A DNA stretch of 35,254 nucleotides from Falsigemmobacter faecalis (GTDB taxonomy: Bacteria; Pseudomonadota; Alphaproteobacteria; Rhodobacterales; Rhodobacteraceae), in contig NZ_RRAZ01000036.1 in the NCBI RefSeq assembly GCF_003863335.1, positions 1 through 35,254 on the forward strand, written 5' to 3'. The notes under the pieces were generated by a model. The model was not told the DNA's origin. It saw only the letters and a program-made list of their open reading frames with translations, and searched no databases. Made by a program: the position numbers and the translations under genes. Shown here one piece after another: positions 2,131 through 33,976 of the stretch. Position 1 is the stretch's first letter, and every line of letters starts with the position of its first letter.

Positions 2131-5100
2131 GTGAAAGTGCCTTTCCGAATGCCTGGACTGCTCTCGCTGCTGAAGACCTATCCTCATGGGCGCAGCCTTG
2201 AGCAGATACACCGGATGAGGGGCGCTACGTTTTCGCCTGATGCACGACTTGGGGTGCTGACAGAGCTGGGCGATCTGCAACGGGCCGGCCTCGTGCAGCG
2301 AACGGCCGATGGGCTGTGGGTCTGTGCGGCGCGGCAAGACAGCTCCACGGCTGAGGTGCCAGGAACCCCTCTGACGGTGGATCGTCATCCCGGGGCAGAC
2401 GGCGGAAACAGGATCGCCGCTGCGCCATTCCGGCGCGCCACCAGCCCCGTCTCCTCCGCAGATCCGGTGGAGGACGCGGGGAGTGATGTGCCTGATCCTG
2501 CGGCACTGCTGCGCTACTGGCGATCGTCATTGCGGTCGGATCCGCGGGGCGCATTGACTGAAACGCCCGATCGGCACGGGATTGTCTGGCACCTGATCAC
2601 CGGAGAGGGGCCGCTTGTCCCGGATGCGGATCAGGATCTGCAGCTGAGCTTCCGTTCAGATCACCTGCAACCGGGATTTCGCGAAGCTCTGCGGAGACGG
2701 GAGGCCGAGGAACGGGTTCTGGCCATAGGATGGCCCCTGGCCCTCGGGCGGGCGAAAGGCGTTCCCGTCGTCTGGCCGGTCGGTCTGATTGCCGCGCGGT
2801 GGGCGCTGGAAGCGGACGAGCTGCGCCTGACGATTTCGGCCGATGATCTTTTGGTGAACCCCGACTGGCTGCGTGGTTTTGTGCGCAGCAGCAGCTGGAC
2901 TGCCGAAGATCTGCAGTCGGTGTTCAGGGGCGGGGAGGGCGTTGGACATCAGTTCTCCGAGTTCCTGCCGCGTCTGCGCGATGCCGCCGCGCGCCAGATC
3001 AGAGGATCTCTGAATGGTGTTGTGACCACGCGCACGCTGGATCTGGACGACACCGGCCTGTTTGACGCCGCCGCGCTTTTCCTTCCGGATGAGAACTCTT
3101 TCACCTCCGGAGCGTCAAGGGAGCTGGACCGCATCGCGGGCTGGGACGCCGGAAAGCTTGCGTCGACGGCTCTGGCCCCTTTGCTGAACCTGGCCGAGAC
3201 TGACCCGGCCCCGCCTCATGGTGCGATCAATACCAGCGCGCTGAACAATGAGCAGCTTCAGGCCCTTCGCTACAGCTGCTCAGCGCCACTGACCGTGGTG
3301 ACCGGACCTCCGGGCACCGGTAAGTCAGAGGTGATCGTTTCTGTTGTCGCATCGGTTCTGCTGGAAGGGGGATCGGTCCTTGTCGCCTCCAAGAACCATC
3401 AGGCGCTGGACGCCGTTGAAGATCGCCTTGGGGCCATCGCGCCCGATATTGATTTTCATGTGCGCACGCTGGACCCGTCGCGGGAGCTCGACCAGGGCCT
3501 GGTGCAGGTTGCGCGCCGTTTAAATGACATCAGCGGTCCCGGAAGTCGTGAGCCGGATCCGGAATTGCTGGCTCAGATCCGGGCCATAAGCGCTGATCGC
3601 AACGCTGCTCTTTCGGGCGCAGAAGCACGCGAAGTGCTTCAATGTGAGCTGGCTGACCTGTTGGAGCGGCGGCTGACCTCAGCCGAGCCGATGGCGGCCA
3701 GAGGCGCGCCCGAACGCCCGACCGGCATCTGGCAGCGGCTGATTTCATTTCTGAAGGGGACAGCGGCGGGGACCGGTCCCTCAGATCCCGACAGACGCAT
3801 AGCCGCTCTTCGTAAAGAGCTCTCTCAGAGCCCATCCTTTGCAGATCCGGTCGTGCTGACCGAAGACATTGCAGGCCGCGCAAAAGCGCTGCTGCCCCGC
3901 TATCTGGGCGCAAAATCTGCCATGAGCAGCGCAGCCCGATCAGATCTTGGCGGGCTGATTGCGGATTTTGAATTTGCCGGTCGGCGGGATGCGGTTCCTC
4001 TGGCCCTGACGCGCCAGGTTCTTGAACATCGCCCGCTCTGGCTGGTGTCAGTGCTTGGGGCCGCGCGCCGGGTTCCGCTGGAGCCTGCGCTTTTTGATCT
4101 GGTGGTCTTTGATGAGGCCAGTCAGTGCGATATTGCCTCGGCGCTGCCGCTGTTTGCGCGCGCGAAGCGCGCAATGGTCGTGGGCGACAGCAATCAGCTG
4201 ACCTTCATCCCCTCGATCGGCCGGGATCAGGATCGCAATCTGATGCGCACCCAAGGGCTGCCTGTCGCGCGGATGAGCCGCTATGCGCAAAGCAGCAATT
4301 CGCTGTTTGATTTCGCCAAAAATGTGCCGGGCGCAAAGCGGGTTATGCTGCGCAGCCAATATCGCTCCGCCGCGCCGATCGTCGATTATATCAGTGACGA
4401 ATTTTATGACGGCAGCCTGCGGGCCGCAGGCGATCCGGCACGGCTTCGGCCACCACCCGGACAAGCGCCGGGAATTGCATGGACCGATGTCCGAAGCCCC
4501 GCTTCCATCAGCGGCAACGTCAACCGCGCTGAAGTGACGGCAATCGCTGCTCATGTGGCAGATCTTCTGAACGTGCAGGGCTATGGCGGCTCGGTCGGGG
4601 TTGCGACGCCCTTTCGGGCGCAGGCGCAGGAGATTGATCAGGCGGTGCGCGCGCTGGTCTCTGTACCCCGGCTGGAGCTGTCGGCTTTCCGGGCGGCAAC
4701 CGTTGACAGCTTTCAGGGGCAGGAGCGGGACCTGATTATCTTCTCGCCGGTTCTGGGTCCGGCCAGTGCCGAGACAGCCGTGACATTCGTGCAAAAAGAT
4801 CGTCGCCGGATGAATGTGGCGATCTCACGTGCCCGCGCGGTGGCGCATGTGTTCGGCGATCTGAATTTCGCGCGGGGCGCAAGAGTGCGCTCTCTGGCAA
4901 GGCTTGCAGCCGTTGCAACCGAGCCGCGCCAGCGCAGCGGCGAGGGTGTTTTCGACAGCCACTGGGAGCGTGTGCTTTATCATGCCTTGATTGAGCGCGG
5001 GTTAAAGCCGCAGCCGCAATACGAGATTGCCGGACGCCGACTGGATTTCGCGCTGTTCGGGGCAGGGGAGATCCGCCTGGATGTCGAGGTGGACGGGCGG

Positions 5101-5259
5101 CAGTGGCATGAGGCCCGCGATGGCGGGCGCAAGCTTCCCGATCTCTGGCGGGATCATCAGATGCAATCCATGGGCTGGCGCGTGCGCCGCTTCTGGGTCG
5201 ACGAACTCAGCGAAAACATGGAGGCATGCCTTGAGCGCATCGAACAAGACCTCAGGTAA
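2131..5259 (+). CDS. SF1 helicase fused to Vsr/DUF559-like nuclease
   Basis: First gene of a five-gene operon; about 1042 residues from GTG at 2131 (an in-frame ATG at 2149 is an alternative; an in-frame TAG at 2113 limits extension). Residues 7-65 look like a winged helix. Helicase motifs: Walker A GPPGTGKS (392-399), DEAS (661-664), GDSNQL (685-690), VDSFQGQE (858-865) and MNVAISRAR (894-902), the pattern of UPF1/Dna2-like superfamily 1 enzymes. Residues about 945-1042 resemble the Vsr/DUF559 endonuclease fold: SHWE, RRLDFAL (D972), DVEVDG (E986, D988), then HEARD and GWRVRRFW. The roughly 300 residues before the helicase are unassigned. I infer a nucleic-acid unwinding and cutting subunit of a defence system, acting on DNA or RNA. 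The 5' leader is AT-rich but shows no clear promoter. Confidence 0.85.
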   Translation: MKVPFRMPGLLSLLKTYPHGRSLEQIHRMRGATFSPDARLGVLTELGDLQRAGLVQRTADGLWVCAARQDSSTAEVPGTPLTVDRHPGADGGNRIAAAPFRRATSPVSSADPVEDAGSDVPDPAALLRYWRSSLRSDPRGALTETPDRHGIVWHLITGEGPLVPDADQDLQLSFRSDHLQPGFREALRRREAEERVLAIGWPLALGRAKGVPVVWPVGLIAARWALEADELRLTISADDLLVNPDWLRGFVRSSSWTAEDLQSVFRGGEGVGHQFSEFLPRLRDAAARQIRGSLNGVVTTRTLDLDDTGLFDAAALFLPDENSFTSGASRELDRIAGWDAGKLASTALAPLLNLAETDPAPPHGAINTSALNNEQLQALRYSCSAPLTVVTGPPGTGKSEVIVSVVASVLLEGGSVLVASKNHQALDAVEDRLGAIAPDIDFHVRTLDPSRELDQGLVQVARRLNDISGPGSREPDPELLAQIRAISADRNAALSGAEAREVLQCELADLLERRLTSAEPMAARGAPERPTGIWQRLISFLKGTAAGTGPSDPDRRIAALRKELSQSPSFADPVVLTEDIAGRAKALLPRYLGAKSAMSSAARSDLGGLIADFEFAGRRDAVPLALTRQVLEHRPLWLVSVLGAARRVPLEPALFDLVVFDEASQCDIASALPLFARAKRAMVVGDSNQLTFIPSIGRDQDRNLMRTQGLPVARMSRYAQSSNSLFDFAKNVPGAKRVMLRSQYRSAAPIVDYISDEFYDGSLRAAGDPARLRPPPGQAPGIAWTDVRSPASISGNVNRAEVTAIAAHVADLLNVQGYGGSVGVATPFRAQAQEIDQAVRALVSVPRLELSAFRAATVDSFQGQERDLIIFSPVLGPASAETAVTFVQKDRRRMNVAISRARAVAHVFGDLNFARGARVRSLARLAAVATEPRQRSGEGVFDSHWERVLYHALIERGLKPQPQYEIAGRRLDFALFGAGEIRLDVEVDGRQWHEARDGGRKLPDLWRDHQMQSMGWRVRRFWVDELSENMEACLERIEQDLR

Positions 5260-6697
5260 GTCCTGGACCTTCACCACAATTGCAGCCGTGCTGGCGCTTA
5301 CCAGCGCAGGCGGGGTCGCGTTTACGGGCTGGAAACTGAACACGCTGCACCAGGAATTTGGCCGGATCAGCTCTGACATCGACTGGTTTCAGGCGCAACG
5401 CAGCGGGCTTCTGGCCGAGCGCGATGAGCTGCGGGCCCAGCAGATACAGCTGGAGGCCGCGACGGTGCAAACACGTGAAGCCGCGGTCGGGGAAGAAGCG
5501 GCGCTGGCCCTTCTGAGGACGGAGCGCGCCCGTTTTGCAGATGAGATTGCAAAGCTCGAGGCTGAGTTGAAGTCGCGCCAGGACCGCGTGACGAAGGCGG
5601 AAGAGACCATTCGCAACGCGGGCGCTCTGCGGAGCGAGCTTGAGACCGGCGCCACACTCAAGCGCCAGTTTGAGCGTGAGGTGGCTTCGCTGACGCAAAG
5701 CCGTGATAAGCTTCTGGCGGAGGAAACACGGCTTCGCGAAGCCCAGACGACCCTTACCTCGTCTCTGGCAGCCCTGCGCCAGGAGCGGGATGACCTTGAT
5801 CGCGCGACTGAGGAAAGTCGCAGTTCACTGAGCGCATTGCGCACAACCGAAGAGCGGCTGAAAGTGACGCTGAGCGGCCTTGAGGCCCGTGCGGCAGAGG
5901 CCGGGACGGCGGATGAACGGCTGCGCGAAGTGGCTGAAAAACTGGCCTCCGCTCAGGTGGAACTGAGCGGAGTAACCGCAGAACGCGACAGGATTTCCCA
6001 GAGTATCGCGGCGCTGAAGACAGAGATCTCCGGGCTTCAGGTCGAGAAACAGACGGCAGATCAGGAGCTTGCAGCTCTGCGCTCTGAGCTGCCTCCGGCT
6101 GCGGCTGCGGTGAAGACCGAAGCGGCCCGACTGGAAGAGCTGACGCTTGCGGTCACGGCAAAACGCACAGAGCTGCAGAGTGCAGATGCACAACTGGCCT
6201 CTGTGACCACAGCCCTCAGCGCGGCGCAGGGGGATCTTGCAAAGGCGAAGGCTGATCTTACCCAGGTGAGCGCAGATCTGGACACCCGGCGGGCCATAAC
6301 CCTGGAAGCCGACAGCGCGGGTCTGCGGCTGCGGGAGGTTACGGCAGCGATCACCAGCGAAGAGGCCCGGCTGAAAAGCCTGGAGCAGGAGGTGGCGGCG
6401 CGGCTCACAAGGCTTGAGGAAACCCGCACATCTCTTGATGTGGCGAACCGCGACCTCGCCCTTGCGCTGGCCTCTGTCGGCGCAGAACAGGCCCGGCTGC
6501 CGGCCCTGCAGATGGAAACGGAAAAGCTTGACCAGGTGCTCGCGGCCCGTGCCCAGGCCGAAACCGCGCTGTCCGCGATCCGGCTTGAGCTGCAGGCCGA
6601 AACGGCCCGTCTGAACCTTCTGCGCGAAGAGATGGCGGTGCAGCCTGTTCCCGCTGTTGCCGTGCCGCTGTCGCAACCCGTGATTTCCCAGCCCTGA
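5231..6697 (+). CDS. Membrane-anchored coiled-coil protein
   Basis: I place the start at TTG 5231, six bases after GGAGG (5220-5224), overlapping the helicase gene by 29 bp; longer readings would be translated inside that gene's nuclease domain. The 488-residue product has a short amino end with two lysines, a hydrophobic segment at about 12-33 (FTTIAAVLALTSAGGVAF), and then about 430 residues of almost unbroken heptad-rich Glu/Arg/Ala/Leu coiled coil. It ends in a proline-rich tail (PVPAVAVPLSQP). No enzymatic motif is visible. Positive charges before the membrane segment would favour a coiled coil outside the cytoplasm, but the prediction is weak. As part of the operon it is probably a structural or sensing partner of the AAA+ protein encoded next. 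Confidence 0.8.
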   Translation: MSASNKTSGKSWTFTTIAAVLALTSAGGVAFTGWKLNTLHQEFGRISSDIDWFQAQRSGLLAERDELRAQQIQLEAATVQTREAAVGEEAALALLRTERARFADEIAKLEAELKSRQDRVTKAEETIRNAGALRSELETGATLKRQFEREVASLTQSRDKLLAEETRLREAQTTLTSSLAALRQERDDLDRATEESRSSLSALRTTEERLKVTLSGLEARAAEAGTADERLREVAEKLASAQVELSGVTAERDRISQSIAALKTEISGLQVEKQTADQELAALRSELPPAAAAVKTEAARLEELTLAVTAKRTELQSADAQLASVTTALSAAQGDLAKAKADLTQVSADLDTRRAITLEADSAGLRLREVTAAITSEEARLKSLEQEVAARLTRLEETRTSLDVANRDLALALASVGAEQARLPALQMETEKLDQVLAARAQAETALSAIRLELQAETARLNLLREEMAVQPVPAVAVPLSQPVISQP

Positions 6698-6708
6698 GGA
6701 GCGCTCCT

Positions 6709-8901
6709 GTGTATACCACGGATCTGATGATCTTTATCACCGCAGCCTCGGGACTGGTCGTTCTGTCACTTCTGATGCTGTTCAAATCCTGGCGCCATGA
6801 CCGGGTCGTGCAACTGGCGGGCCCTCTCGCAAGTCGCGAGGCCCTGGAGGCGCAGGTCATTGAACTGCGCAAAGAGCGGGACCGCCTTACCCTGGCCAAT
6901 AATGATCTGCGCGAGGTGCAGGGCCAGACGGAACTGGCAAAGGGCGTGCTTCAGGCGCTGCAGGGCCGTATCGCAGACCTGGAACGCGAGTGGGAAGGCC
7001 GGGACGAGCAGCGCAGTGAAATCCGTGATCTGCGGGTTCAGACCGAGCAGGCCGCAACCGAGCTGCTCGCAAAGACCGGAGAGCTGGAGCGCGCAAAGGC
7101 CGGGCTTGATCTGGTCAAAGAGCGCCTGGCCCAGGCTGAGGGCATTGAGACCAGGCTGGAGGAGCTGAGGTCTGAAGAAGGGCGGATGCGCGACGCTCTT
7201 CAGGCCCTGAGCGCAGAGCTTGGCGATCTGCAGGCACAAAGAGCAGCAGCTGAGGCTCTGGGTCTGGAAATCGGTGGCCTGAACGCGAAGAAGAACGAAC
7301 TGGAGGCCGGGCTTGCACGCCTTGAGGGTCAACAGTCAGTGCGCGCAGCAGAACTGGCAGAGCTTGAGGACCGGGTGAAGTCAGCCCGCACCGCTGAGAG
7401 CGAGCTTCGCAGTCGCAACGACCTTCTGGCCAGCGAGCTGTCGGCTGCGCGCCAGAGCAGTCAGGAACTTGCCCAGGCGGTCAGTGCCGCTGAGACGCGG
7501 TTGCGGCTTGCCGAGCATGAACTCAGGCAAACCGAAACTCAGACCGACCGTCTGAGCGCGCTGGAAGAAAGCATCGATGCACTGCGCGGAGAGCTGGCCC
7601 ATCTTCAGGCCCGTCGCGACACGCTGGCAGAGGATGAGCAGCGCCTGCAGATCACCCTCGAAGAAAAGAACGCGCGTCTGCAGGCCATTCTGCGGGAAAC
7701 GGAGAAGAGCGGGGCAGGGCGCGCAGCTGCAGGGCGCGAAGGCCCGCCTGCTGAACTCAGCGAAGAGCCTGAAGTCATCCGCCATCTGCGCCTTCTTCCC
7801 GGCCCGCGCAGCGGTCTGGCGGAGGATGAGGCGCTGGATAACGTCCGGCGCACCCTGCAGGGCGCGGGGCTCAGCTATCATCCGCGTGTGCTCACCGCCT
7901 TCCATACGGCGATGAAGGTCAACGATACCACGCAGATGGCCGTTCTGGCCGGGATCTCGGGCACCGGAAAAAGCCAGCTTCCGCGCAATTATGCCGCTGG
8001 TATGGGCATCGGCTTCCTGCAGGTTCCGGTGCAGCCCCGCTGGGACAGCCCGCAGGATCTGATGGGATTTTATAACTATATCGAAAGCCGCTTCCGGCCC
8101 ACCGATATGGCAAAGGCCCTGTGGGCGCTGGATTCAGAGAATAACATCAATGCCCTGCAGGACCGCATGATGATGGTCCTGCTGGACGAGATGAACCTCG
8201 CGCGGGTTGAATATTACTTCTCCGACTTCCTCAGCCGCCTGGAAAGCCGGCCCGCGCCGCTGCGGGTGTCTGATCCCATCCTGCGCAAGGATGCTGAGCT
8301 TGAGCTGGAAATCCCCGGCCAGCCGGTCCGGATTTTCCCGGGCTATAACCTGCTCTTTGCCGGGACCATGAACGAAGACGAAAGCACCCAGTCGCTTTCC
8401 GATAAAGTGGTGGACCGCGCGAATGTGATGCGCTTTGGGGCGCCGAAGAAGATCGTCACGCCCTCGCCCGCGGCGCGCGCGGAAAACTCACAATCGGTCC
8501 CGGCGCTCAGCTATACGCAGTGGAAACGCTGGACCTCGCGGGATGCGTCGGGCGATGCGGATCTGGCGCGCAGTCAGCTTGATGAGATGCTCTCCATTAT
8601 GCAGACCTTCGGCAAGCCTTTCGGCCATCGCCTGGGGCGCGCGATCCTGTCTTATGTGGGGGCCTATCCTCAGGTCAGCGGCGGCGGTGATCGGGTGCGC
8701 ACGGCGCTGGCAGATCAGATTGAGATGCGGCTTTTGCCAAAACTGCGCGGCGTCGATGTGACAAGCCATGACGACGACTTCCGCAGGATTGAGAAAATGG
8801 CCTCCGATCTTGGCGATGAGCCGCTGGCCGCTGCCATCCGGGCCTCTGTCGATGCGTCACAGGCCAGCACGCTCTTCAGCTGGCAGGGCGTCGTGCGTTG
8901 A
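6709..8901 (+). CDS. Membrane-anchored coiled-coil McrB-type AAA+ ATPase
   Basis: GTG start 8 bases after GAGGAG, 11 bp behind the previous gene; 730 residues. Residues 6-25 form one membrane segment (LMIFITAASGLVVLSLLMLF) followed by K/R, predicting a cytoplasmic body. About 30-340 is coiled coil. About 375-730 is an McrB-like AAA+ module: Walker A GISGTGKS (415-422), Walker B with the McrB-family signature LLDEMNLARVEYYF (491-504), sensor region GTMNEDEST (552-560) followed by LSDKVVDRANV. In McrBC systems this domain is a GTP/ATP-driven motor that works with McrC; the NEDEST motif differs from the NTAD of classical E. coli McrB, so nucleotide preference is open. It overlaps the DUF2357-like gene by four bases, as McrB and McrC genes usually do. 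Confidence 0.85.
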   Translation: MYTTDLMIFITAASGLVVLSLLMLFKSWRHDRVVQLAGPLASREALEAQVIELRKERDRLTLANNDLREVQGQTELAKGVLQALQGRIADLEREWEGRDEQRSEIRDLRVQTEQAATELLAKTGELERAKAGLDLVKERLAQAEGIETRLEELRSEEGRMRDALQALSAELGDLQAQRAAAEALGLEIGGLNAKKNELEAGLARLEGQQSVRAAELAELEDRVKSARTAESELRSRNDLLASELSAARQSSQELAQAVSAAETRLRLAEHELRQTETQTDRLSALEESIDALRGELAHLQARRDTLAEDEQRLQITLEEKNARLQAILRETEKSGAGRAAAGREGPPAELSEEPEVIRHLRLLPGPRSGLAEDEALDNVRRTLQGAGLSYHPRVLTAFHTAMKVNDTTQMAVLAGISGTGKSQLPRNYAAGMGIGFLQVPVQPRWDSPQDLMGFYNYIESRFRPTDMAKALWALDSENNINALQDRMMMVLLDEMNLARVEYYFSDFLSRLESRPAPLRVSDPILRKDAELELEIPGQPVRIFPGYNLLFAGTMNEDESTQSLSDKVVDRANVMRFGAPKKIVTPSPAARAENSQSVPALSYTQWKRWTSRDASGDADLARSQLDEMLSIMQTFGKPFGHRLGRAILSYVGAYPQVSGGGDRVRTALADQIEMRLLPKLRGVDVTSHDDDFRRIEKMASDLGDEPLAAAIRASVDASQASTLFSWQGVVR

Positions 8902-10397
8902 GCCGCCATCTGCTGCACCGTCCCTGGGAAAGCAAATCCGAGGCTGATGCGGTCTTTCGGCCCGAGGACTGCCTGTTGAGTGAGGCGCAGGGCGGGCGGC
9001 CCGGCGGCGAGCATGCGGTCCTGATGTCCTCGGGGAGTGCAGCCACGCGGCGGGCGCTTTTGCTGCATCCCTATCCGCTGCGCCAGCCCGCGGCGGATCC
9101 TGCGCGCGAGGGGTTCTTTCTGCGCCCCCGTGAAGGCCGTGAAGAAGAGGCCCCGCCCGAAGCCCGCGCGGCCCTGAGCCGGATGAACCAGGTGATTGCG
9201 CGGGTCCAGGAGTTGGGAGAAGCCCTGGATGATCCGTCAAATCTCTGGGAGCATCTGCGCGAGGCCTGGGACCGCGCAGGCCAGGAGGAAAGCCCGCGGA
9301 TGGCGGAAATCGTGCGCCAGTCCGCAGAGATGGAGCCGGTTCTGAGCCGCCTGCGCAGCACGTTGCGGCGCGTGCTGCGGCGACACCGCGAACTGACGCC
9401 GATGGGGCGGGTTCAGGAAATGGATCGCAGCTCAATGCGCTGGCTGTCACGGCAGCCCGGACGCAGCATCGCAGAGCGCGCAGGCGCTGGTCAGCGGATC
9501 ATGGCCGTCGTTCGTCATGAGGATTTCGACACCCTGGAGAACCGGGTCGCCCATTCTTACGTCACCCTTGCCGCAGAGGTGGGCCGCGAATGGCTGCGCG
9601 AGCATCAGCGCGCCAGTGGCAGCCGCCGCTTTCAGAGTGTCGACAGCTTTGTAAAGCTGTGCCGGGTGACGGCCCTGGATCTGCAGGCCCATGGCATCGG
9701 TTTTGCCGAAGCGGGGATTACCCCCAATTATGTCCTGCTGGAGAACCCGACGTATTCGAGGATCCGCACCAACTGGCTCAGGCTGTTGCAGCGCAAAAAG
9801 GCCAATGACAGCCACTGGGCCTGGCAGGCGCAGACCTGGATGGATTTCACCGTATTGGCGATTGTGCTGGCCCTGAGAGATCTGGAGGGCGCTGAGCTGA
9901 TCGCGCAGTCTCCGATCCTGTTCCGGGAGGAGGCTGAGGGGGGGATCTGGTTCGAACAGGAGCGCCCGATCGCCGTCTTCTGGCTGCGCCATCAGGGCAT
10001 CGTTGCGGAAGTGATGGCCCGTCCGGCGCAGCCCGGCACAGCGCTTCTCGAAGCGCGGGCACCGGTCAGCCTGCGCATCACGCCACTGGGACATGGCAGC
10101 GCGCCGCCGCATCGGGTTGCGGTCTGGGCCGCGCATGCGCTTTTGCCGATAGACCTGAGACAGGCGGCAGCCGGGGCCGCGCAGCGGCTGGACCAGGTGC
10201 GGCGGCTGCCCTCTTTGTCAGAGCGGATCCGCGACGGCCTCATCCTGACCCCCGCGCATGACAGTTTCGCACAGGCTGCGGAACGCCGGGGAAATTGCAC
10301 TGTGGTTGCGGTGGCACTCGGGGCCGCGGGCGAGGCGCTGACGCAGGGCCGCGCAGCCATCAGCGCCTTCCTGCAGCGCGATATCTGGAGCGCGTAA
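8898..10397 (+). CDS. DUF2357/McrC-like protein
   Basis: TTG start in a TTGA overlap with the McrB-type gene; 499 residues, no membrane segment. The central part (about 185-300) has the pattern of DUF2357/McrC proteins, with a hydrophobic helix after FDTLENRVAHSYV (210-222), comparable to the conserved ENR motif of that family. Its position directly after an McrB-type gene supports the call. The carboxyl part contains a possible restriction-endonuclease-like strand pattern (IWFEQERPIAVFWL, then GIVAEVMARP), but I see no convincing D-(x)n-ExK set, so it may be inactive as a nuclease. The likely role is to couple to and activate the AAA+ partner. The family assignment is an inference from short motifs and synteny. 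Confidence 0.6.
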   Translation: MSRHLLHRPWESKSEADAVFRPEDCLLSEAQGGRPGGEHAVLMSSGSAATRRALLLHPYPLRQPAADPAREGFFLRPREGREEEAPPEARAALSRMNQVIARVQELGEALDDPSNLWEHLREAWDRAGQEESPRMAEIVRQSAEMEPVLSRLRSTLRRVLRRHRELTPMGRVQEMDRSSMRWLSRQPGRSIAERAGAGQRIMAVVRHEDFDTLENRVAHSYVTLAAEVGREWLREHQRASGSRRFQSVDSFVKLCRVTALDLQAHGIGFAEAGITPNYVLLENPTYSRIRTNWLRLLQRKKANDSHWAWQAQTWMDFTVLAIVLALRDLEGAELIAQSPILFREEAEGGIWFEQERPIAVFWLRHQGIVAEVMARPAQPGTALLEARAPVSLRITPLGHGSAPPHRVAVWAAHALLPIDLRQAAAGAAQRLDQVRRLPSLSERIRDGLILTPAHDSFAQAAERRGNCTVVAVALGAAGEALTQGRAAISAFLQRDIWSA

Positions 10398-12793
10398 TGT
10401 CTTTTCGCAGGCTTTGTGGCTATGATCTCAACGGCTGGCGGGACCAATCCGCCCGAAACTGGCAGATCACAGCGGATGGGGAACTTGAAGAAGGCCCTGT
10501 CTCTCTGACGGGGGCGGTGACGGATCCCTGTGTGGTTCTGACGGGATCAGGCGGGCGACGCGAATGGATTGGCGGCGCGCAGGCTGCATTGTCGCCGCAT
10601 GGCCTTGGGGAAGGCTGGGGAGATCTTGGTGATCCCGCGCGCAGGCGGCGGGTGCGGGATTGTCTTGCCGATCAGGCCGTCCGGCCCGAGCAGCTTGCAG
10701 CAGCGTTGAAGGGGCTCACGGCGGGGGCTGCGACCATCGCGATTTCGCTGGAAGAACAGGAGGGCCAGGACGAGGCGCTGCAGGACCGGTTGCTGCGGGC
10801 GGTCTCGGCGGCCCGGCTCGGCCAGCCGGTTCTTGTCTGGCGCAGTGTCCTGGCTCTGCTGGGGCACCTTCAGCTGGATGGGGCCGGGGACAATCTCTCC
10901 GAAGGCGACCGGATCGGGGTGATCTGTCACGATGCTGAGGGGTTTTCTGTGCAAATCCTGCGGCTGCGCGAAGAAGAAACCCTGCATGGGCGTATCCTGA
11001 CGCCGGAGCGCCAGAAGGCGGCCCGGCACGTAAACTCGCCCTGGGGCTATCACGGTCTTCTGGATGAGGCGGCCCGGGTCACCGCGCAGATCACCCCGCA
11101 GCTTCGCGGCGATCTGGCCGGGCAGATGCGCCGGTTGAGCACCTTTGCGCTTTCCGGCGCGCAACAGGAGGAACTTTTACGCGACGCTGCAGGGCGGTTT
11201 CATCTGATCCGAACCCCGGCAGAGTTTGATCTGCCAGAGCAGACCCCTGATCTGTCAGGCTTCAGTGAACTCGCGGGATGCCAGACAGTGCTCTTTGAAA
11301 GTCACTGCTCGGGCGCGGTTTATGCGTCCTTGTTTCGTGAACTCTCCGCTCTGTGTCCGAAGCCTTTGCAGCCTCTCTTTGCCGGGGCCGTGGCTTTTGG
11401 CGCGTTCGAGGCCGCGCGGCGCCTCGCGGCAGGTGAGCCGGTTTACTACGATTTTCTTCCTCAGATATCGACCATCGTTCTGGGCGCGGAAGGGGCGGGC
11501 AGCTTTGATCTGATCGAGCCCGAGGCCCGTCTGCCTGCGGGGCGCGTCTATCGCTCACCGGTCGCGGCGGATTTTGGTCTGCAGCGCGGCGCGAAAGAGC
11601 TGAAGGTCTACCTCAGGAGAGAGCTGGACCCCCGGCCCAGGCTCGCGCGTCATCTGCTGGACGTGGAAATCCATAAGCAGACCAAGGTCTCCCTTCACAT
11701 CGAACAGGCCCCCGCTGCGGGGCGCGCGCAGTTAATCGTTGAAGCGCCCGACCTTGGGCGGCAGTTCCGGCTGAACTGGGCGCAGGCGGAGGTCTGTCCC
11801 GAGAGCTGGGAAGACCTGATTGCGAAGCTAAGCACACCTCCCGTGTCCATCCCCCGGCGCATGGTTCTTGAGGGGGGCACAGAGCCATGGCAAAGGACCC
11901 CGACCTCTGACGGGCTGGCGCTCGCCTTGCATCGGCAGTCCGGCAGGCCATCCGCTGACTGGGAGGTGCTTGCTGGTTTAATGTGCCGCAAAGCCGACGG
12001 GCGCTACCCCATTTCCAGCGACGGCGATCTGACGCCGGAGCTTCCTGCTGTCACTGTTGCAAACCTTGAGGCCGTCAATGCGCGGGCCATGACGCATCTG
12101 CGCGCCAGAGCCAGCGGAGAGATCACGGCTGACAACAGCTCCTTGAAATACCTGACCTGGCAGTTCCGGCGCGCACCTGCGGGACTGGCACGCATGCTGC
12201 TCGATGTGCTGCGGTTGCGGGAGCCGGGCAAAAAGCATCCCTTTATCCGCAGCCAGATGAGCTGGATTCTGGTGGCGCAGGGTCTTGGGCGCATCTGTCA
12301 GCGGCCTCAGGACGAAGAAGACCTCCTGCGCATCTGTCTTGCGAGGCAGATCACTGACTGGAGCTACCGCGTGGAGACGGCGGCGGTCGCCTTTGTGCTC
12401 TCCCGCTCTCCGACCGCCCATCACTTTCTGACGCCAAAGGATCTGCACAGACTTGTAAAGCGCATCAGGCTTGAATTCGAAGCAGAGCGTGGCAGCGATT
12501 ACACGAAGTTCAACTACGCACCGCTTCTGCTTGCAGGCCTGCTGCGTCAGCGCGAGCGGGACCGCTCTGCCTTTGTGCTGGGCCGCGATCCGCTGGCGCA
12601 GGTTCTGGACGATCTCATCGACGGCACCCTAAGCGACTTTGACAGCCGGCGCAGCTCATCTCCGAGCCGGATCCGAAATATTGCCCGCTATCGCCCGCTG
12701 CTTAAAGCCCTGCGGGATGAATTGCGCGGTGAAGGCACAGATCCGGATATTCTTTTGCATATTCATAATCTTGACGATGACCCCAAAGGGTAG
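10397..12793 (+). CDS. Divergent Hsp70-like ATPase with helical tail
   Basis: ATG at 10397 overlaps the previous stop by one base (TAATG), six bases after GGAG; 798 residues. The amino end CGYDLNGW sits where Hsp70 proteins have GIDLGTT, so phosphate loop 1 is altered. At about 325-380 there is a clear Hsp70-like run: FAGAVAFGAFEAARRLAAGE, then PVYYDFLPQISTIVLG and EARLPAGRVYR, matching the end of the nucleotide-binding domain and start of the substrate-binding beta domain (to about 435). About 440-798 is mostly helical and may be the DUF3731-type tail of large YegD-like Hsp70 homologues (from memory). It probably acts as a chaperone-like switch for the other four products. Last gene of the operon. 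Confidence 0.65.
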   Translation: MSFRRLCGYDLNGWRDQSARNWQITADGELEEGPVSLTGAVTDPCVVLTGSGGRREWIGGAQAALSPHGLGEGWGDLGDPARRRRVRDCLADQAVRPEQLAAALKGLTAGAATIAISLEEQEGQDEALQDRLLRAVSAARLGQPVLVWRSVLALLGHLQLDGAGDNLSEGDRIGVICHDAEGFSVQILRLREEETLHGRILTPERQKAARHVNSPWGYHGLLDEAARVTAQITPQLRGDLAGQMRRLSTFALSGAQQEELLRDAAGRFHLIRTPAEFDLPEQTPDLSGFSELAGCQTVLFESHCSGAVYASLFRELSALCPKPLQPLFAGAVAFGAFEAARRLAAGEPVYYDFLPQISTIVLGAEGAGSFDLIEPEARLPAGRVYRSPVAADFGLQRGAKELKVYLRRELDPRPRLARHLLDVEIHKQTKVSLHIEQAPAAGRAQLIVEAPDLGRQFRLNWAQAEVCPESWEDLIAKLSTPPVSIPRRMVLEGGTEPWQRTPTSDGLALALHRQSGRPSADWEVLAGLMCRKADGRYPISSDGDLTPELPAVTVANLEAVNARAMTHLRARASGEITADNSSLKYLTWQFRRAPAGLARMLLDVLRLREPGKKHPFIRSQMSWILVAQGLGRICQRPQDEEDLLRICLARQITDWSYRVETAAVAFVLSRSPTAHHFLTPKDLHRLVKRIRLEFEAERGSDYTKFNYAPLLLAGLLRQRERDRSAFVLGRDPLAQVLDDLIDGTLSDFDSRRSSSPSRIRNIARYRPLLKALRDELRGEGTDPDILLHIHNLDDDPKG

Positions 12794-13149: not shown

Positions 13150-13622
13150 TTTTTCGGCTGCCCTTCCCATGGCCGGGAGGAGTGAAAACCGATGAAATCC
13201 TCGAAGTTTTCGGCTGCCCGGAAGGGTTCATCCTGAAGCGGGGCGCAGACGGCATGCTGGTGGCGGATCTCTGCTGTAAGGCCGGGATCCGCCCTGCGAC
13301 TTACGTCAGCTGGAAGAAAAGATACAAGCGCATGCTGCCGAAGGATATGCGGCGGATAAAGCTGCGTGAAGACGAAAATGCGCAAGCTGGTGGCAGACTT
13401 GTCTCCGGACAGGGAAATGCTGTGAGGCATGTCCTGCGCCGAAAGCTCAAAGGCCTGCCGGAAGGCGTCAGCTTGTCGACCGCACCTGCCTCGAATGGAA
13501 CGTCTCGATCCGGAGGGCCTGCGCGGTTTTTCTCGTTGATACGTCGAGCTGCCATTCCAAAGCGTGGCGGTCCGGGCAGGCCAGCATAGAGCAGAAGATC
13601 CGCGACATTTGTCAGATGTAAA

Positions 13623-14267: not shown

Positions 14268-14358
14268 ACATGAGGAAGCTCAGAAAACGCTCCGGGTATG
14301 AGCAGGACAAGCATTTGATCCGAGGAATCAAATGCCCTGCGATTGGTTTTCCCGACGA
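14268..14358. repeat. Two nested palindromic insertions
   Basis: A left half-element GAAAACGCTCCGGG (14283-14296) with flank TGAGGAAGCTCA, and a right half GGTTTTCCCGACGA (14345-14358), match the two sides of the 1414-1440 type. Between them is a second element: GCATTTGATCC (14311-14321), GA, GGAATCAAATGC (14324-14335), with its own flank GAGCAGGACAA. The whole 90-bp block interrupts the IS3 orfB sequence between ADARAKM and the RPQGAIG region. Confidence 0.6.
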
Positions 14359-14584
14359 TTGGGTTGAGGGACGACAACACCGAACGACCGCAGGGCGCCA
14401 TTGGCGATAAGACGCCCTGCGAACTGGCAAAGCCGGGGCCTGCATCCGGCCCGGGCCCCGGCTGAAGGCCCGAAAATTCCAGCTTCGGGCGGTCCGGAAA
14501 CCGGGCTCCCTCCATTGAAGAGCAGTCTCTGGCGTCCGCCGGTCCGGGTTTGGGATCAGGGGGGCAGCTGGCAGGACCGCCCGC

Positions 14585-24670: not shown

Positions 24671-24955
24671 TCAGTTCATTCTGCGGCGCCAGGCAGCAGC
24701 CCGCCCCAGCAGGTGCGCACCGATGGGGGCGGTGAGAAATATGAACAGAATTGCAAATACTGCACGGGTTGTGGCGCTGAGGGTGCCGATGTCCAGTGCG
24801 GCGGCAAGTAAGGCAAGTGCGCCTGCAAAAGAGGCGACTTTTGATGATGCATGCATGCGGGTCATAACGTCAGGAAAGCGAAGAACGCCCACTGCCGCTA
24901 CAATGGCAAAAACGCCGGCGCAGAGTGCAAGCAAGCCGCTGATAAAATTAATCAT
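24671..24955 (-). CDS. mrpG: Mrp antiporter subunit G
   Basis: 94 residues from the ATG at 24955 (MINFISGLLALCAGVFAIVA); the ATG overlaps the end of mrpF by eight bases. Three membrane segments are apparent, with the conserved GVLRFPDVMTRMHASSKV loop of MrpG/PhaG between the first two and a final FLTAPIGAHLLGRAA. A longer reading from 25015 would add 20 residues lying inside mrpF and is less likely. Last gene of the mrp operon; part of the multi-subunit Na+(K+)/H+ antiporter of the inner membrane. No terminator hairpin was seen after it. Confidence 0.92.
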   Translation of the reverse strand: MINFISGLLALCAGVFAIVAAVGVLRFPDVMTRMHASSKVASFAGALALLAAALDIGTLSATTRAVFAILFIFLTAPIGAHLLGRAAAWRRRMN

Positions 24956-25247
24956 CTGAATCACTCCGACGGGCAAGGCGAATGGCATAGCGGGCCAGGG
25001 CGACCACTGAGACAAAACTGACCAGCGCCAGGGCTACAGCGATATCCAGAAAGGCTTCTGTGTGGGTTTTCACGGCATAGATGGCACAAAAACCGATCAC
25101 GGCTGAAGTCATCATATCAAGCGCGACGATGCGATCCGAAAGTGTCGGCCCCCGCCACAGGCGGATAAAGCCCAGCAGGATCGCCACGCCGATCAGAATG
25201 AGGCTGACATCAAGCACATGACTGAAGAAGGTCTGATTGTCGGTCAT
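24948..25247 (-). CDS. mrpF: Mrp antiporter subunit F
   Basis: 99 residues, ATG at 25247, overlapping the end of mrpE by four bases. Three membrane segments, with the family motif RLWRGPTLSDRIVALDMMTS after the first and TEAFLDIAVALALVSFVSVVALARY at the end. Small membrane subunit of the Mrp complex, required for assembly in studied systems. Confidence 0.93.
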   Translation of the reverse strand: MTDNQTFFSHVLDVSLILIGVAILLGFIRLWRGPTLSDRIVALDMMTSAVIGFCAIYAVKTHTEAFLDIAVALALVSFVSVVALARYAIRLARRSDSDD

Positions 25248-25726
25248 CTGAACACCCTGCTCACGCGCAGCTCCATGCCATTCCGGAGATCCTCTATGAC
25301 GGCATCGGTATCTTCGGCATAGATTGAATGAATGAGGAGGGCGTCTTTCTCCTCTGTCACATCCAGCGTCAGGGTGCCGGGTGTCAGGGTGATCAGATTG
25401 GCCAGCACAAAGATCTCAAGATCGCTTTTGGGACCAATGGGAAATCGAAAGACCGCCGGGCTCAGCCTTGGGCGCGGGGACACACAATCCCGTGCCACCA
25501 TCAGACAGGACTTGACCAATTCCTTCACAAAATAGGCAAAAAGGACAAAGATCTGAGGCAAAACCCGAAAATAGCGCTCTTCCCCCGTACCGCTGGCAAG
25601 CCTGCGCGCGAGCCAGAGGGCGACAAAGCCGAAGAGATAGCCACCGATCAGATCAACAGGCGTAAAACTGTCCCACAGGGACGCCCAGATAAGCGCCAGC
25701 AGGACGTTGAGGGCAAAGAACGTCAT
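25244..25726 (-). CDS. mrpE: Mrp antiporter subunit E
   Basis: 160 residues, ATG 25726, four-base overlap with mrpD. Matches MrpE/PhaE: two or three hydrophobic helices in the first 70 residues (LNVLLALIWASLWDSFTPVD, GYLFGFVALWLA), VLFAYFVKELVKSCLMVARD, and a soluble carboxyl half with the FVLANLITLTPGTLTLDVTE pattern characteristic of the family. It is needed for full antiport activity in other bacteria. Confidence 0.93.
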   Translation of the reverse strand: MTFFALNVLLALIWASLWDSFTPVDLIGGYLFGFVALWLARRLASGTGEERYFRVLPQIFVLFAYFVKELVKSCLMVARDCVSPRPRLSPAVFRFPIGPKSDLEIFVLANLITLTPGTLTLDVTEEKDALLIHSIYAEDTDAVIEDLRNGMELRVSRVFR

Positions 25727-27255
25727 ATTGCCTCCGGTGCAACAGGGGGTGCTGCGGGGCCTGCCACATTGAACACAGCGTCAAGATAGGCGACAGGGTT
25801 CAGAAGCTGTTCCGCCGCCGTGGTTGCGAAATCGGCAAAGGGCGCAGGCCAGACACCGATCAGAACCGTCATAGCGGCCAGCGCGATCACCGGACCCAGC
25901 AGCAAGCGGCGCGCGCGGGGCGACAGCAGCGCGAGAGACGGCTGACGCCCTGCAGGATGGGGCTTCCAGAACGCCTCGGCCCAGATCTTGGTCATGGAAA
26001 AGATGGTCAAAAGCCCCGTCAGCAGCGCGATGAAGGCAACGAGCCACATCCCCGGTTCAAGCGTGGCCTTCACCAGCACGAATTTGGCCCAAAATCCTGA
26101 CAGCGGCGGAAACCCCGCCAGCGAGAAGGCCGGGATCAGGAAAAGCACAGCCAGCAGGGGGGCACTGCGGTAAAGACCGCCGATACGGTAAAGGTCCGAG
26201 CTGCCCGTAAGACGCTGCGCGATCCCCGCAATCAGGAAAAGGTTCGCCTTCACGATGATATGGTGAACCAGGTAAAAAACCGCGCCCATCAGCGCCAGCG
26301 GCGTCATCAAAGCCAGACCCAGCACCATATAACCGATCTGGCTGACGATATGGAACGACAGGATCTTGCGGAAGTCGCTCTGGGCCGCCGCGCCGAGCAC
26401 GCCTGTCAGCATCGTGAGGCAGGCAACCCACAACAGAATTTCGTGGGTAAACCCCTGATCATTCACGAAGATCAGGGTGAACATGCGCATCAGCGCATAG
26501 ACCCCCACCTTGGTCAGCAGACCCGCAAAGAGCGCCGAGACCGCGTAATGCGGCGTGTGATAGGAAGCCGGCAGCCAGAAGAACAGCGGAAACACCGCCG
26601 CCTTCATCCCAAAGCCGATCATCAGCATCATCGCGATCAGCGTCATCAGCCCCTGATCGGGATGCGCCGCCACCGCCTGCCGCAGATCGGCCATGTTCAG
26701 CGTGCCGGTCGCCCCATAAAGCAGCCCGGCGGCACAAAGAAACAGGACCGTCGCAATCAGGTTCAGCGTCACATATTTCACGGCCCCATCAATCGCCTGC
26801 CTGCGCCCGCCCACGACCAGCAGGCCGAAGGACGAAATCAGCAAAACCTCAAACCAGACGTAAAGGTTGAACAGGTCGCCGGTCAGAAAGGCTCCCGTGA
26901 CGCCGCCGATCAGGGTTTGAAAAAGGGTATGCCAGCCATAGCGCGATGAGGTCTGGCCCACCTCAGCCATCGCCCAGACCGAGACCGCCAGAGCGATAAT
27001 GGCGGTGATCAGCACCATGGCCGCAGAGAGATAATCACTGACAAGGGTGATGCCATAGGGCGCGGGCCAGCCGCTCATCTGCGTGGCCACAACGCCTTCG
27101 CGCAGAACCGCACCCAGCAGGGCCAAAGCCGCCAGCAGCGAAGCGGCACTGCCAAGGACAGAGATCCAGCCCGCGCCTTTGCGATTGCGCAACATGAGGG
27201 TCGCTGCTGCGGTGATGAACGGCAGCAGGATCGGAAGCGACAGGATCCAGGTCAT
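25723..27255 (-). CDS. mrpD: Mrp antiporter subunit D
   Basis: 510 residues, ATG 27255, overlapping mrpC and mrpE by four bases each. It is a 14-helix proton-translocating subunit homologous to NuoM/N of respiratory complex I: TGDLFNLYVWFEVLLISSF (conserved glutamate near 136), KAAVFPLFFWLPASYHTPHY, the broken-helix lysines around 218 and 250 (LLTKVGVYALMR), and the SDFRKILSFHIVSQIGYM stretch. Length is normal for MrpD. Confidence 0.95.
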   Translation of the reverse strand: MTWILSLPILLPFITAAATLMLRNRKGAGWISVLGSAASLLAALALLGAVLREGVVATQMSGWPAPYGITLVSDYLSAAMVLITAIIALAVSVWAMAEVGQTSSRYGWHTLFQTLIGGVTGAFLTGDLFNLYVWFEVLLISSFGLLVVGGRRQAIDGAVKYVTLNLIATVLFLCAAGLLYGATGTLNMADLRQAVAAHPDQGLMTLIAMMLMIGFGMKAAVFPLFFWLPASYHTPHYAVSALFAGLLTKVGVYALMRMFTLIFVNDQGFTHEILLWVACLTMLTGVLGAAAQSDFRKILSFHIVSQIGYMVLGLALMTPLALMGAVFYLVHHIIVKANLFLIAGIAQRLTGSSDLYRIGGLYRSAPLLAVLFLIPAFSLAGFPPLSGFWAKFVLVKATLEPGMWLVAFIALLTGLLTIFSMTKIWAEAFWKPHPAGRQPSLALLSPRARRLLLGPVIALAAMTVLIGVWPAPFADFATTAAEQLLNPVAYLDAVFNVAGPAAPPVAPEAI

Positions 27256-27614
27256 GCTTTATCTTTCTCCGGCTCAGCCAGCCGCATGCGGTCAGCGTCA
27301 AGATGGCCGAAAACTCTGTAGGCTTTCATGGTCAGCGCCAGCACAAAGGCAAAGAGCCCGAAGCCAATGACAATGGCCGTCAGCAGCAGTGCCTGCGGCA
27401 GAGCATTCGCCATTGCCGCTTCGGGCAGAGCCCCGCCCGCGCCGAGCAAAGGGGCCGCGCCCGGGGTCAGACGCCCAGCCGCGAAAATGGCAAGGTTCAC
27501 CCCATTTGACAGCAGCAAAAGCCCGAAAATGAACCGCAGCAGATTGGCAGACAGCATCAGCCAGACCGCGCATGTGACCAGAAGGCCCGCGAGGATAGCG
27601 GAAATTGTGATCAT
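27252..27614 (-). CDS. mrpC: Mrp antiporter subunit C
   Basis: 120 residues, ATG 27614. NuoK-like three-helix subunit: [32 protein letters not shown], then [26 protein letters not shown]. The sequence [15 protein letters not shown] is highly typical of MrpC. The carboxyl end carries an acidic/basic cytoplasmic tail. Four-base overlaps with both neighbours. Confidence 0.95.
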
Positions 27615-28015
27615 TTCAGAGTATCCTCCAGCGCGAAGACGAGCGTCAGGATGCCTCCGAAGACCGCCAGGTAGACGCCGATGTCAAACAAAAGGATGTT
27701 CGATAGCTTCAGCCCGGCGATTTCTCCCCAAAGCCCGGAAAAGGGCTCGGTCCCGGCAAAGGCGGGCAGCAGACCGGCGATTAAAGCCGCCACCAGCCCG
27801 AGCGCTGCAATATTGCGCGGATCCGTCTTAAGCGCTTTGCGCGTCTCAGCCACACCCCCCGCAAACGCATGGATGGTCAGCCCGCAGGCGGCAATCAGCC
27901 CGCCGATGAAGCCGCCACCCGGGGCATTATGCCCCCTGAGAAGGACGTAAAGCGAGAACACCATGAAGAGCGCGGTGAGCAGCCGGGCCCCGGTGCTCAG
28001 GATCAGAGAGTTCAT
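27611..28015 (-). CDS. mrpB: Mrp antiporter subunit B
   Basis: 134 residues, ATG 28015, beginning one base after the mrpA stop. Four membrane helices; the family motif [19 protein letters not shown] lies at about 29-46, and [19 protein letters not shown] ends the protein. Separate mrpA and mrpB genes place this operon in the seven-gene type. Confidence 0.95.
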
Positions 28016-28016
28016 G

Positions 28017-32929: not shown

Positions 32930-33176
32930 CTATACCCATAGCCTTTCGGCGCCATACTTTACAGCCGCTGGACGACTGCCTCTCTGCCCTGCAGCCGAGC
33001 CTCCCGCATCTCAGCAGATCGGCCCTTCATCGCTGTTTGCAGAGACATGGGATTTCACGACCGGAGGATGTCAGCGGTGACAAACCAAAGCCTCAAAAGC
33101 TTAAGCGCATCCCGATCGGCTTTTTCCACATCAATATCGCCGAAGTGCAGACGGCTGAAGTTTGAGGAGGATCAGC
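32930..33176 (+). pseudogene. IS481-family transposase fragment
   Basis: Same frame and sequence type as the copy at 24100-24340: IAFRRHTLQPLDDCLSALQP, LHRCLQRHGISRPEDVSG, FFHINIAEVQTAEV-stop. The left side is truncated at the codons for VAFRRH, and the right side ends at the palindrome 33177-33198, beyond which the sequence is that of the inverted IS5/IS1182-type copy B. Confidence 0.8.
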
Positions 33177-33198
33177 AAACGATCCGGGGGATCGGTTT
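33177..33198. repeat. Palindrome at an IS481-IS5 junction
   Basis: AAACGATCC (33177-33185), GGG, GGATCGGTTT (33189-33198): one extra base in the right arm. The left flank (GAGGAGGATCAGC) matches the IS481 copy and the right flank (CCGCCGCAAGTCGATGCG) matches copy A on its minus strand. Confidence 0.75.
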
Positions 33199-33510
33199 TC
33201 CGCCGCAAGTCGATGCGTGTACGGTGCCTGATCGACAGGGCGTAACCCTTGCGGCGTGTCGTCCGGCCATCGATCGCGGAATACCCCGACTGTTGCGCAA
33301 TCTGCGGGGTGACGCAGGCGCGGCGCAGATCAGCCACGAAGTCGGCAGCGTCAAAACCCTTGTCGGCCCCCGGCGCCCGCTGACGCGTGGAGCCCGGGGA
33401 ATACCGGTGGATCATGCCGGGGGCGCCGTGCCGCACGACCATCGGTCCGGGTGAGGTCGCGCTTTCGCACGATCAGGCCGGAGCGGTTCTCCATCAAAGC
33501 CGTCGTCGGG

Positions 33511-33533
33511 AAAACGGTCCCCCGGAGCGTTTT
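33511..33533. repeat. Palindromic insertion in copy B, AAAACGGTCC type
   Basis: AAAACGGTCC (33511-33520), CCC, GGAGCGTTTT (33524-33533), one mismatch. Same site as 1414-1440 in copy A. Confidence 0.75.
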
Positions 33534-33961
33534 CTCACCCTCCTCCACCGACAAAGCAGTGCATTGCTCCTGTGCCGGGCGACTTCCTGTAAAGCCGCGC
33601 GTCGGGATCGGTCGTCGAAACATGAGTGATATTGGAACGCCTCTGGCCGACGGCAGGTTCACTGCGACATTGCGGCTTTGGCGGGTCATTGGGGCGGGTC
33701 TCTCTCGGGCTCGCCGGCCTCTGCGGTCCACCGGGGTCGTCGTCCGAGGGACTATTGTCAGGCTTTGGACAGAACGCTTCATCGAGGCCCATGCCTTCAC
33801 CAATCCGGGACGTGGTTGTCCGGCAGCAGGGGGCGACTTCGCGGTGAGCCAGAATGGCTGCCATCACCTCCTGCGATATCTCCGTGCTCAGCAGCCCGTC
33901 CCGATTCTTGCTGAAGACCCTCGGCCTTCGGCCCCGGGCTGCGCCCGTTCAGGGCTGAAGC

Positions 33962-33976
33962 CTGTCCCCCGGACAG
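33962..33976. repeat. Decayed palindromic insertion in copy B
   Basis: CTGTCC-CCC-GGACAG; the outer AAAT/ATTT arm survives on one side only. Same site as 989-1011 in copy A. Confidence 0.6.

Follow-up and report, generated by a model that had tools for sequence, protein, structure and literature searches.

A five-gene operon of Falsigemmobacter faecalis with the architecture of a Type III-B CoCoNuT and hydrophobic N-termini on its two coiled-coil proteins

A stretch of 35,254 nucleotides from Falsigemmobacter faecalis (NCBI RefSeq assembly GCF_003863335.1, contig NZ_RRAZ01000036.1, positions 1 to 35,254 of the forward strand; hereafter "the window") contains five intact open reading frames (ORFs), all on the plus strand, which we designate cnuH, cnuA, cnuB, cnuC and cnuD. 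The first (2131-5259) encodes an SF1 helicase of UPF1-like type (1042 aa) that carries a Vsr/DUF559 nuclease at its C-terminus, and is followed by cnuA (5231-6697), whose 488-aa product consists of an N-terminal hydrophobic segment and a long coiled coil. The third gene, cnuB (6709-8901), specifies a 730-aa protein with a predicted N-terminal membrane-spanning segment, a coiled coil (approximately residues 35-330) and a GTPase domain of the McrB-type AAA+ class. The last two, cnuC (8898-10397) and cnuD (10397-12793), encode a DUF2357/McrC-like protein of 499 aa and a protein of 798 aa with a predicted Hsp70 fold and an all-helical C-terminal part. The junctions from cnuH-cnuA to cnuC-cnuD measure -29, +11, -4 and -1 bases, exactly the values given for five coupled plus-strand genes in a first-pass annotation of this DNA, which had proposed a candidate new defence system. 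A Shine-Dalgarno sequence (GGAGG, 5220-5224, plus strand) and the TTG start codon of cnuA (5231-5233) both reside within the 3' end of cnuH. The same arrangement, GGAG followed after five to eight nucleotides by TTG within the last 60 bases of cnuH, was found in all 26 full loci of the comparison described below, the TTG not always being the called start of cnuA; the 29-base overlap itself occurs in 14 of the 26. Because the GGAG...TTG arrangement is kept throughout, the embedded signal suggests that cnuH and cnuA are translated in a tuned, coupled manner. A scan for promoters and terminators yielded values near chance (2 vs 2.0; 15 vs 11.2 ± 3.4).

The set is well supported, by sequence and predicted structure, as an intact Type III-B CoCoNuT with the order CnuH-A-B-C-D. 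In the main text of Bell et al. (2024, PMC11090510), systems of this type are described as having a CnuH with an N-terminal winged helix and a directly fused Vsr nuclease, a CnuA made up of a coiled coil without other recognizable domains, a coiled-coil CnuB with an NxD motif, a CnuC that has lost its nuclease motif and a separate Hsp70-like CnuD; they lack TerY-P and occur mainly in Alphaproteobacteria. The type is further characterised by a large helical insertion behind the Walker A motif of CnuH and, in CnuC, by an inactivated PD-(D/E)xK fold and an N-terminal immunoglobulin-like domain. The operon in the window shares the helicase-Vsr fusion, CnuA, the NxD motif of CnuB, a DUF2357-type CnuC that shows no ExK at the expected place and the separate CnuD, and a Pfam scan of the 30 further ORFs of the window yielded no match to the kinase, PP2C and VWA components of the TerY-P triad. 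Thus, the operon anticipated in the first-pass annotation is real and its kinship with McrBC is borne out by the McrB-type GTPase with its NxD motif and DUF2357 partner. Its novelty is not, since this gene set and architecture have been published as III-B CoCoNuT (PMC11090510), a variant relationship that the annotation had itself considered and that order, domains and NxD motif now support. We reject the idea of a wholly new system because all III-B features looked at were either found or consistent with this assignment. Note that neither a phage experiment nor any other experimental study of III-B was among the literature matches listed, and we therefore infer "defence" for this subtype from kinship and context. 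A 2025 preprint on YprA adds a Type IV CoCoNuT and does not treat III-B in the passages covered.

Relatives were collected by tblastn with CnuD, which yielded four plasmid records, and by an alignment search, which yielded 35 loci on genome contigs and one in IMG/VR; with the window included, the set comprises 41 loci. CnuD replaced CnuB as the query because the coiled coil of CnuB was suspected of misleading the first search step; a class-wide search with full-length CnuB had returned two of 385 genomes, one being that of the window and the other a partial match, with at most two candidates per genome scored among the results shown. The complete H-A-B-C-D order is present at 31 of the 41 loci, eight are truncated where the contig stops (L009, L011, L020, L033, L034, L036, L039 and L041) and two are decayed. 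One of the decayed copies, on a Jannaschia plasmid (L006, 12525-15352), retains a cnuC fragment and cnuD, and at the other, in Rhodobacter sp. KR11 (L031, 9466-12362), cnuD is split over two frames and the other operon genes were not found. In five of the 31 five-gene loci, all from Rhizobium (L005, L013, L024, L037 and L038), cnuH is split in two; at L005 the annotation shows an IS21-type element separating the parts (4446-6750), and cnuA to cnuD stay open. Subtracting these five leaves the 26 full loci on which our counts are based. One of them, L040, has a short cnuD (344 aa), the cnuA of L026 was counted from an upstream start, and the called cnuA starts of L012 and L018, with overlaps of 89 and 140 bases, may lie too far upstream.

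Among the full loci, mean pairwise identity amounts to 0.54 for CnuH, 0.23 for CnuA, 0.53 for CnuB, 0.56 for CnuC and 0.44 for CnuD, and mean identity to the proteins of the window to 0.49, 0.20, 0.46, 0.51 and 0.38, respectively. Since the gene order recurs in relatives whose proteins share on average only 20% (CnuA) to 51% (CnuC) identity with those of the window, the arrangement reflects more than chance. Together with B-C and C-D junctions that stay between -10 and +4 bases in all 26 full loci, the recurring order substantiates the earlier proposal of a single co-inherited operon. Within the family of the window, CnuD is present in 14 of 394 sampled genomes, the window's own counted. It was not found in the single genus mate sampled (G615), where a search for the empty site did not recover a syntenic flank. 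The operon also resides on three Rhizobiaceae plasmids, in one case near genes for Ku and restriction enzymes. Plasmid pRmeGR4d of Sinorhizobium meliloti GR4 has the full set of five genes. A complete system is carried by a contig of 62146 bases filed as viral in IMG/VR (L042), where it is flanked upstream by an integrase gene (phrog_1, 3.6e-59) and downstream by a phage-family gene (phrog_19080, 7.2e-133) with a weaker match to an exonuclease family. Two further copies come from metagenome-assembled genomes labelled Candidatus Saccharibacteria (L036) and Gammaproteobacteria (L029), for which transfer and misbinning are both possible. The taxonomic spread agrees with that given for III-B in PMC11090510.

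In trees of the GTPase domain, the III-B loci formed one group with support values of 100/99 in the full and 98/99 in a reduced tree, both of which carried long-branch warnings. Next to this group stood an operon on Synechocystis plasmid pSYSX (L043), which we assign to Type III-C (95/90), followed by operons assigned to III-A. The types of all comparators are our own assignments from annotated neighbouring genes, not those of Bell et al.; L049, one of two comparators classed beforehand as NxxD, shows an NxD-like motif.

The helicase part of CnuH contains a Walker A motif at residue 392 (3304-3327, plus strand) and a Walker B motif at residue 660 (4108-4125), between which the structural model places a helical insertion (residues 457 to 633). 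Residues 946-1041 match MTES_1575 (1.8e-14) and DUF559 (5.5e-8). The Vsr-like stretch RRLDFALFG...LDVEVDGRQWH (5035-5109, plus strand) lies herein; its letter pattern is conserved in all 26 full loci, and its residues are putatively catalytic. The N-terminal region of CnuH (approximately residues 9-65; 2131-2331, plus strand) resembles a winged helix: a low-confidence model gives the succession helix-helix-helix-strand-strand, EutK_C is matched by two of 16 members (best 9.3e-6) and winged-helix families match weakly. A search of this region against PDB sequences returned nothing significant (best 0.24).

CnuC matches PF09823 in 26 of 27 sequences (best 1.7e-8; the window's own reaches only 0.0015) and is homologous to its counterpart on Synechocystis pSYSX (hhalign 99.3%, 1.2e-20); compared as a single sequence with a Type I-like DUF2357 protein it gave no significant match. 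At the place taken as that of the lost ExK motif, which was chosen by eye (AVFWL...EVMARP, 9972-10025, plus strand), none of the 27 aligned rows has ExK, and EVQ, EVM, EVH, EIQ or EVL are present instead. Because the Vsr pattern occurs in 26 of 26 CnuH sequences and ExK in none of these CnuC rows, CnuH has probably taken over the cutting from CnuC, a shift that Bell et al. argue for the group in their main text (PMC11090510). CnuD is modelled as an Hsp70 fold with nucleotide-binding domain and β-part of the substrate-binding domain (residues ~4-481), followed by a HEAT-like helical part, and this prediction substantiates the Hsp70-like fifth protein of the first-pass annotation. The link needs structure because the CnuD profile found no Hsp70 among PDB sequences (best hit RdgC, 0.17). 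Single-sequence comparisons of CnuD with an 800-aa Synechocystis protein and with an Enterobacter DUF2357 fusion were likewise without significant match.

CnuB bears its Walker A motif (GISGTGKS) at 7951-7974 and the NxD GTPase signature (GTMNEDES) at 8362-8385, both on the plus strand; the signature is present in all 36 CnuB rows, the window and near-identical copies counted. Residues 35-330 show a heptad periodicity with a z value of 6.0, which none of 200 shuffles attained, as compared to 1.1 for the GTPase part. For CnuA the heptad z value is 3.8 (one of 200 shuffles as high) and Pfam matches are weak and of coiled-coil type only. Identity among CnuA proteins is 0.36 within the first 60 residues and 0.21 outside; such fast evolution would fit a sensor and would equally fit a loosely constrained coiled coil.

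Both coiled-coil proteins start with a predicted transmembrane segment, residues 11-34 in CnuA (5261-5332, plus strand) and residues 6-25 in CnuB (6724-6783, plus strand). As a measure we used the best 19-residue Kyte-Doolittle mean (KD19) with 1.6 as a reference, and a second scale was applied in the control. Within the first 80 residues, CnuB reaches 2.33-3.35 in the full loci (26 of 26 at or above 1.6; 2.51 in the window) and CnuA 1.54-2.68 with a median of 2.15 (n=26, 25 at or above the reference), while CnuH, CnuC and CnuD attain 1.6 there in no case (0/26 each). After residue 80 the maximum is 1.16 for CnuA and 0.94 for CnuB, and CnuA therefore has no globular part in which its segment could be buried. 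Among the comparators, 1.6 was attained within the first 200 residues by none of three III-A, three II, two I and four other CnuB-like proteins and by the single III-C-like one, from Synechocystis (2.39); the other 12 of these 13 proteins have values of at most 1.54. On the second scale CnuB (-5.5 to -0.7) is clear of the soluble protein CnuH (0.4 or more), so that its segment stands out by itself and clearly reads as a membrane anchor.

For CnuA the case is weaker than for CnuB, and a membrane segment is likely. As its hydropathy overlaps that of CnuH, the case rests also on the extreme N-terminal position, the absence of further hydrophobic stretches and the flanking charges. On average the net charge is +2.7 on the N-terminal side of the segment and -1.2 on the C-terminal side, with the former exceeding the latter in 27 of 28 distinct, though related, sequences and one tie. 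According to the positive-inside rule, the positively charged flank of a membrane helix stays on the inner side. The charge bias, read by this rule, would place the N-terminus of CnuA inside and the C-terminus outside, and the coiled coil is thus predicted to lie beyond the inner membrane. The membrane linkage claimed in the first-pass annotation holds firmly for CnuB and is likely, though partly ambiguous, for CnuA, where a buried helix of CnuH scores just as high. A term search revealed no mention of membrane anchoring of III-B in the main text and legends of PMC11090510; in the main text no word begins with "membrane" or "periplasm", and "transmembrane" occurs six times, in connection with FtsB, EssC relatives, a label in Figure 8, ShdA and the title of a reference. 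As sequence features the hydrophobic N-termini of CnuA and CnuB are genuine, and they add to the known III-B type a trait that has apparently gone undiscussed.

We consider it somewhat more probable than not that the operon represents an intact defence system of derived McrBC type, resembling Type IV restriction, that is anchored in the membrane and works in the following way. The first helix of CnuB would tether it to the inner membrane, with the coiled-coil stalk and the AAA+ GTPase ring, which is assumed to be cytoplasmic, hanging into the cytoplasm. CnuA would cross the membrane once, in the opposite direction; its coiled coil, which is long and evolves fast, would lie beyond the inner membrane, where it may sense an envelope event of infection and signal to CnuB via the membrane helices. 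CnuC would stimulate the GTPase of CnuB, as McrC does with McrB, without cutting, and CnuD with its Hsp70 fold and helical part may bind the substrate. CnuH would be the effector of such a complex: its UPF1-like motor would load on single-stranded nucleic acid and the fused Vsr-type nuclease would cut. As the target, incoming DNA is slightly favoured over RNA, and the outcome would be protection against phages.

The surroundings of the relatives were also considered. Of 142 mechanically called ORFs of at least 200 aa in their flanks, 125 were scanned with PADLOC profiles at 1e-15 in sets of 60 and 65. Among the best 25 of 76 families in the first set were Shedu SduA (2 hits, best 7.2e-142), PD-Lambda-1 (2, 2.1e-162) and GajB-type helicases (3, 2e-42), and among the best 25 of 118 families in the second set HEC-06 and SspE-like proteins (2 each) and a Type I methylase, endonuclease and specificity subunit (1 each). 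The Shedu, PD-Lambda-1, Type I restriction-modification, HEC-06 and SspE-like genes may be counted as defence context for the proposed mechanism.

Several points weigh against this mechanism. These neighbour counts come without a random-region baseline and some of the loci are close relatives. Support for III-C as the sister falls to 87/66 when the reduced tree is used, and the long-branch warnings apply to both trees. A coiled coil in the helical insertion of CnuH is unsupported (heptad z 0.8), and the charges flanking the CnuB segment favour neither orientation (8 vs 9 of 29). Hydropathy by itself is no proof of a membrane helix: the soluble CnuH reaches KD19 values of 1.52-2.33 around residues 380-400, i.e., in the Walker A region, CnuC and CnuD each reach 1.6 somewhere in six of 26 sequences, CnuA (-2.7 to 2.5) overlaps 11 of 26 CnuH proteins on the second scale, and the window's own CnuA segment has a low value of 1.62, near the lower end of the range. 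This overlap of the CnuH control with CnuA has reduced our confidence in the membrane-anchored mechanism as well as in the trans-envelope reading given below. The same overlap feeds an explanation that we regard as unlikely, namely that the CnuA segment is a hydrophobic helix packed into an interface between proteins and that CnuB alone is anchored. Against it speaks that the segment stands at the very start of a protein made up otherwise of coiled coil, that it spans at least 21 residues free of D, E, K and R and that the charge changes consistently across it. Somewhat less improbable, though still doubtful, is an arrangement in which both N-termini are anchored, yet both coiled coils are cytoplasmic and paired, CnuA serving as a scaffold and not as an outside sensor. 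The positive-inside rule is a tendency and not a proof, and the N-in/C-out charge bias of CnuA in 27 of 28 sequences argues in the other direction. Bell et al. suggest in their main text that CnuA may interact with the other coiled-coil proteins (PMC11090510). If the coiled coil of CnuA lies outside, it cannot simply pair with that of CnuB, as had been suggested.

The most serious competitor, possible though not probable in our view, keeps the family and changes the target. RNA that is aberrant or viral, encountered for instance at ribosomes, would be recognised by the Hsp70-like CnuD and the UPF1-like helicase; the Vsr domain would cut RNA and thereby cause dormancy or cell death, and the membrane would do no more than concentrate the complex. 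The solved structures nearest to CnuH are UPF1, IGHMBP2, SETX and Sen1. Moreover, Bell et al. argue in the main text for RNA as the target, take the Hsp70 fold of CnuD as RNA-binding, and point to II and III-A relatives with HEPN RNases and to the ability of all these kinds of nuclease to degrade RNA (PMC11090510). Quite unlikely, a shade more so than the buried helix, is a function that is not chiefly anti-phage, i.e., as a barrier to plasmids or conjugation or as a DNA repair module on large replicons. The three Rhizobiaceae plasmids, one with Ku and restriction genes nearby, and the integrase on the IMG/VR contig are in line with such a role, whereas the patchy spread in the family and the decayed copies L006 and L031 resemble an accessory defence system, and the McrBC kin are restriction systems. 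Finally, a categorically new system may have converged on the CoCoNuT gene set. PADLOC 2023 gave a specific candidate-system match for cnuB alone (PDC-M26A), and matched cnuH to the helicase components of several systems. The products of cnuC and cnuD bear no NCBIfam name, and PDC-M26 is not named in the literature searched. Given the agreement of architecture and taxonomic spread with the description of III-B in PMC11090510, we hold convergence to be extremely improbable.

Comparison with known systems places the operon further. Canonical McrBC shares the AAA+ GTPase and the DUF2357 partner; the operon differs from it in having NxD instead of NxxD, a coiled coil instead of a small DNA-recognition domain, a CnuC without ExK at the expected place and the nuclease on another protein. 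The operon of Synechocystis pSYSX that we assign to III-C has the nearest comparator GTPase in the tree, a hydrophobic CnuB segment and a homologous CnuC, but it contains a phospholipase D-type gene and has another gene order. No CnuA-like gene is annotated beside it, none having been searched for, and its 800-aa protein is not recognisably CnuD by sequence. Operons assigned to III-A (L044, L050 and L051) and II (L046, L047 and L054) also contain an upstream gene for an AAA-domain helicase-like protein, an McrB-like protein and a DUF2357-type gene; they differ in that genes for a PP2C phosphatase and a kinase lie upstream, that the DUF2357 proteins of III-A are larger and that CnuB lacks an N-terminal hydrophobic segment. 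CoCoPALM systems, as described in the main text of PMC11090510, resemble the operon in an NxD-branch McrB-like GTPase fused to a transmembrane and coiled-coil (FtsB-like) part. Their signal-peptidase and pilus-assembly proteins were recognised neither in the five-gene set nor in the scan of 30 further ORFs, and the presence of a helicase-Vsr gene and an Hsp70-like gene identifies the operon as III-B; the two are set apart here by description. From the published III-B type itself, as far as the main text and legends describe it, the operon in the window differs in the N-terminal segments of CnuA and CnuB and the predicted outside coil of CnuA.

The operon in the window is flanked by repeat-rich mosaics of sequence found elsewhere in the genome. 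Of the 63 places in the genome listed for the left flank, about 23 partly match a short palindromic repeat at 1750-1795 (hairpin z -4.1), which has the look of an intergenic element dispersed over the genome. About 930 bases at 860-1790 recur in inverted orientation at 33163-34109 with 89% identity, and a stretch of about 90 bases at 14270-14362, close to an ORF (13182-13589) whose product contains the transposase domain HTH_Tnp_1, recurs in the genome at about 18 of the 32 places listed, with identities reaching 97%. Beyond these lie genes for an M20 peptidase, a LysR regulator, amino-acid ABC transport and arginase and a cluster for an Mrp-type Na+/H+ antiporter (24948-30260, minus strand) that is unrelated to the operon. 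Those of the 30 further ORFs that match Pfam concern metabolism, transport, regulation, the antiporter and one transposase fragment; in the window, the PADLOC scan was confined to the five operon proteins.

Zorya is a defence system in which the membrane proteins ZorAB span the envelope and are coupled to cytoplasmic helicase and nuclease effectors. The operon described here may follow a similar logic. It is conceivable, though we would put it a little short of even, that III-B and perhaps also III-C systems are trans-envelope immune machines, in which a periplasm-facing CnuA sensor and an oppositely oriented CnuB anchor act on a cytoplasmic helicase-nuclease. This would amount to Zorya-like logic on an McrBC chassis in a branch without the TerY-P module. 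MotAB-like proteins are absent from the operon in the window, and the motor would be an McrB-like GTPase. As far as could be seen, III-B systems have so far been described from sequence alone, with the prediction that they are complexes directed at RNA. A conserved anchor in one and probably two of the five subunits alters what such a system could sense and where it would act. If true, the trans-envelope reading would connect restriction of the McrBC type with the few defence systems that are based at the membrane.

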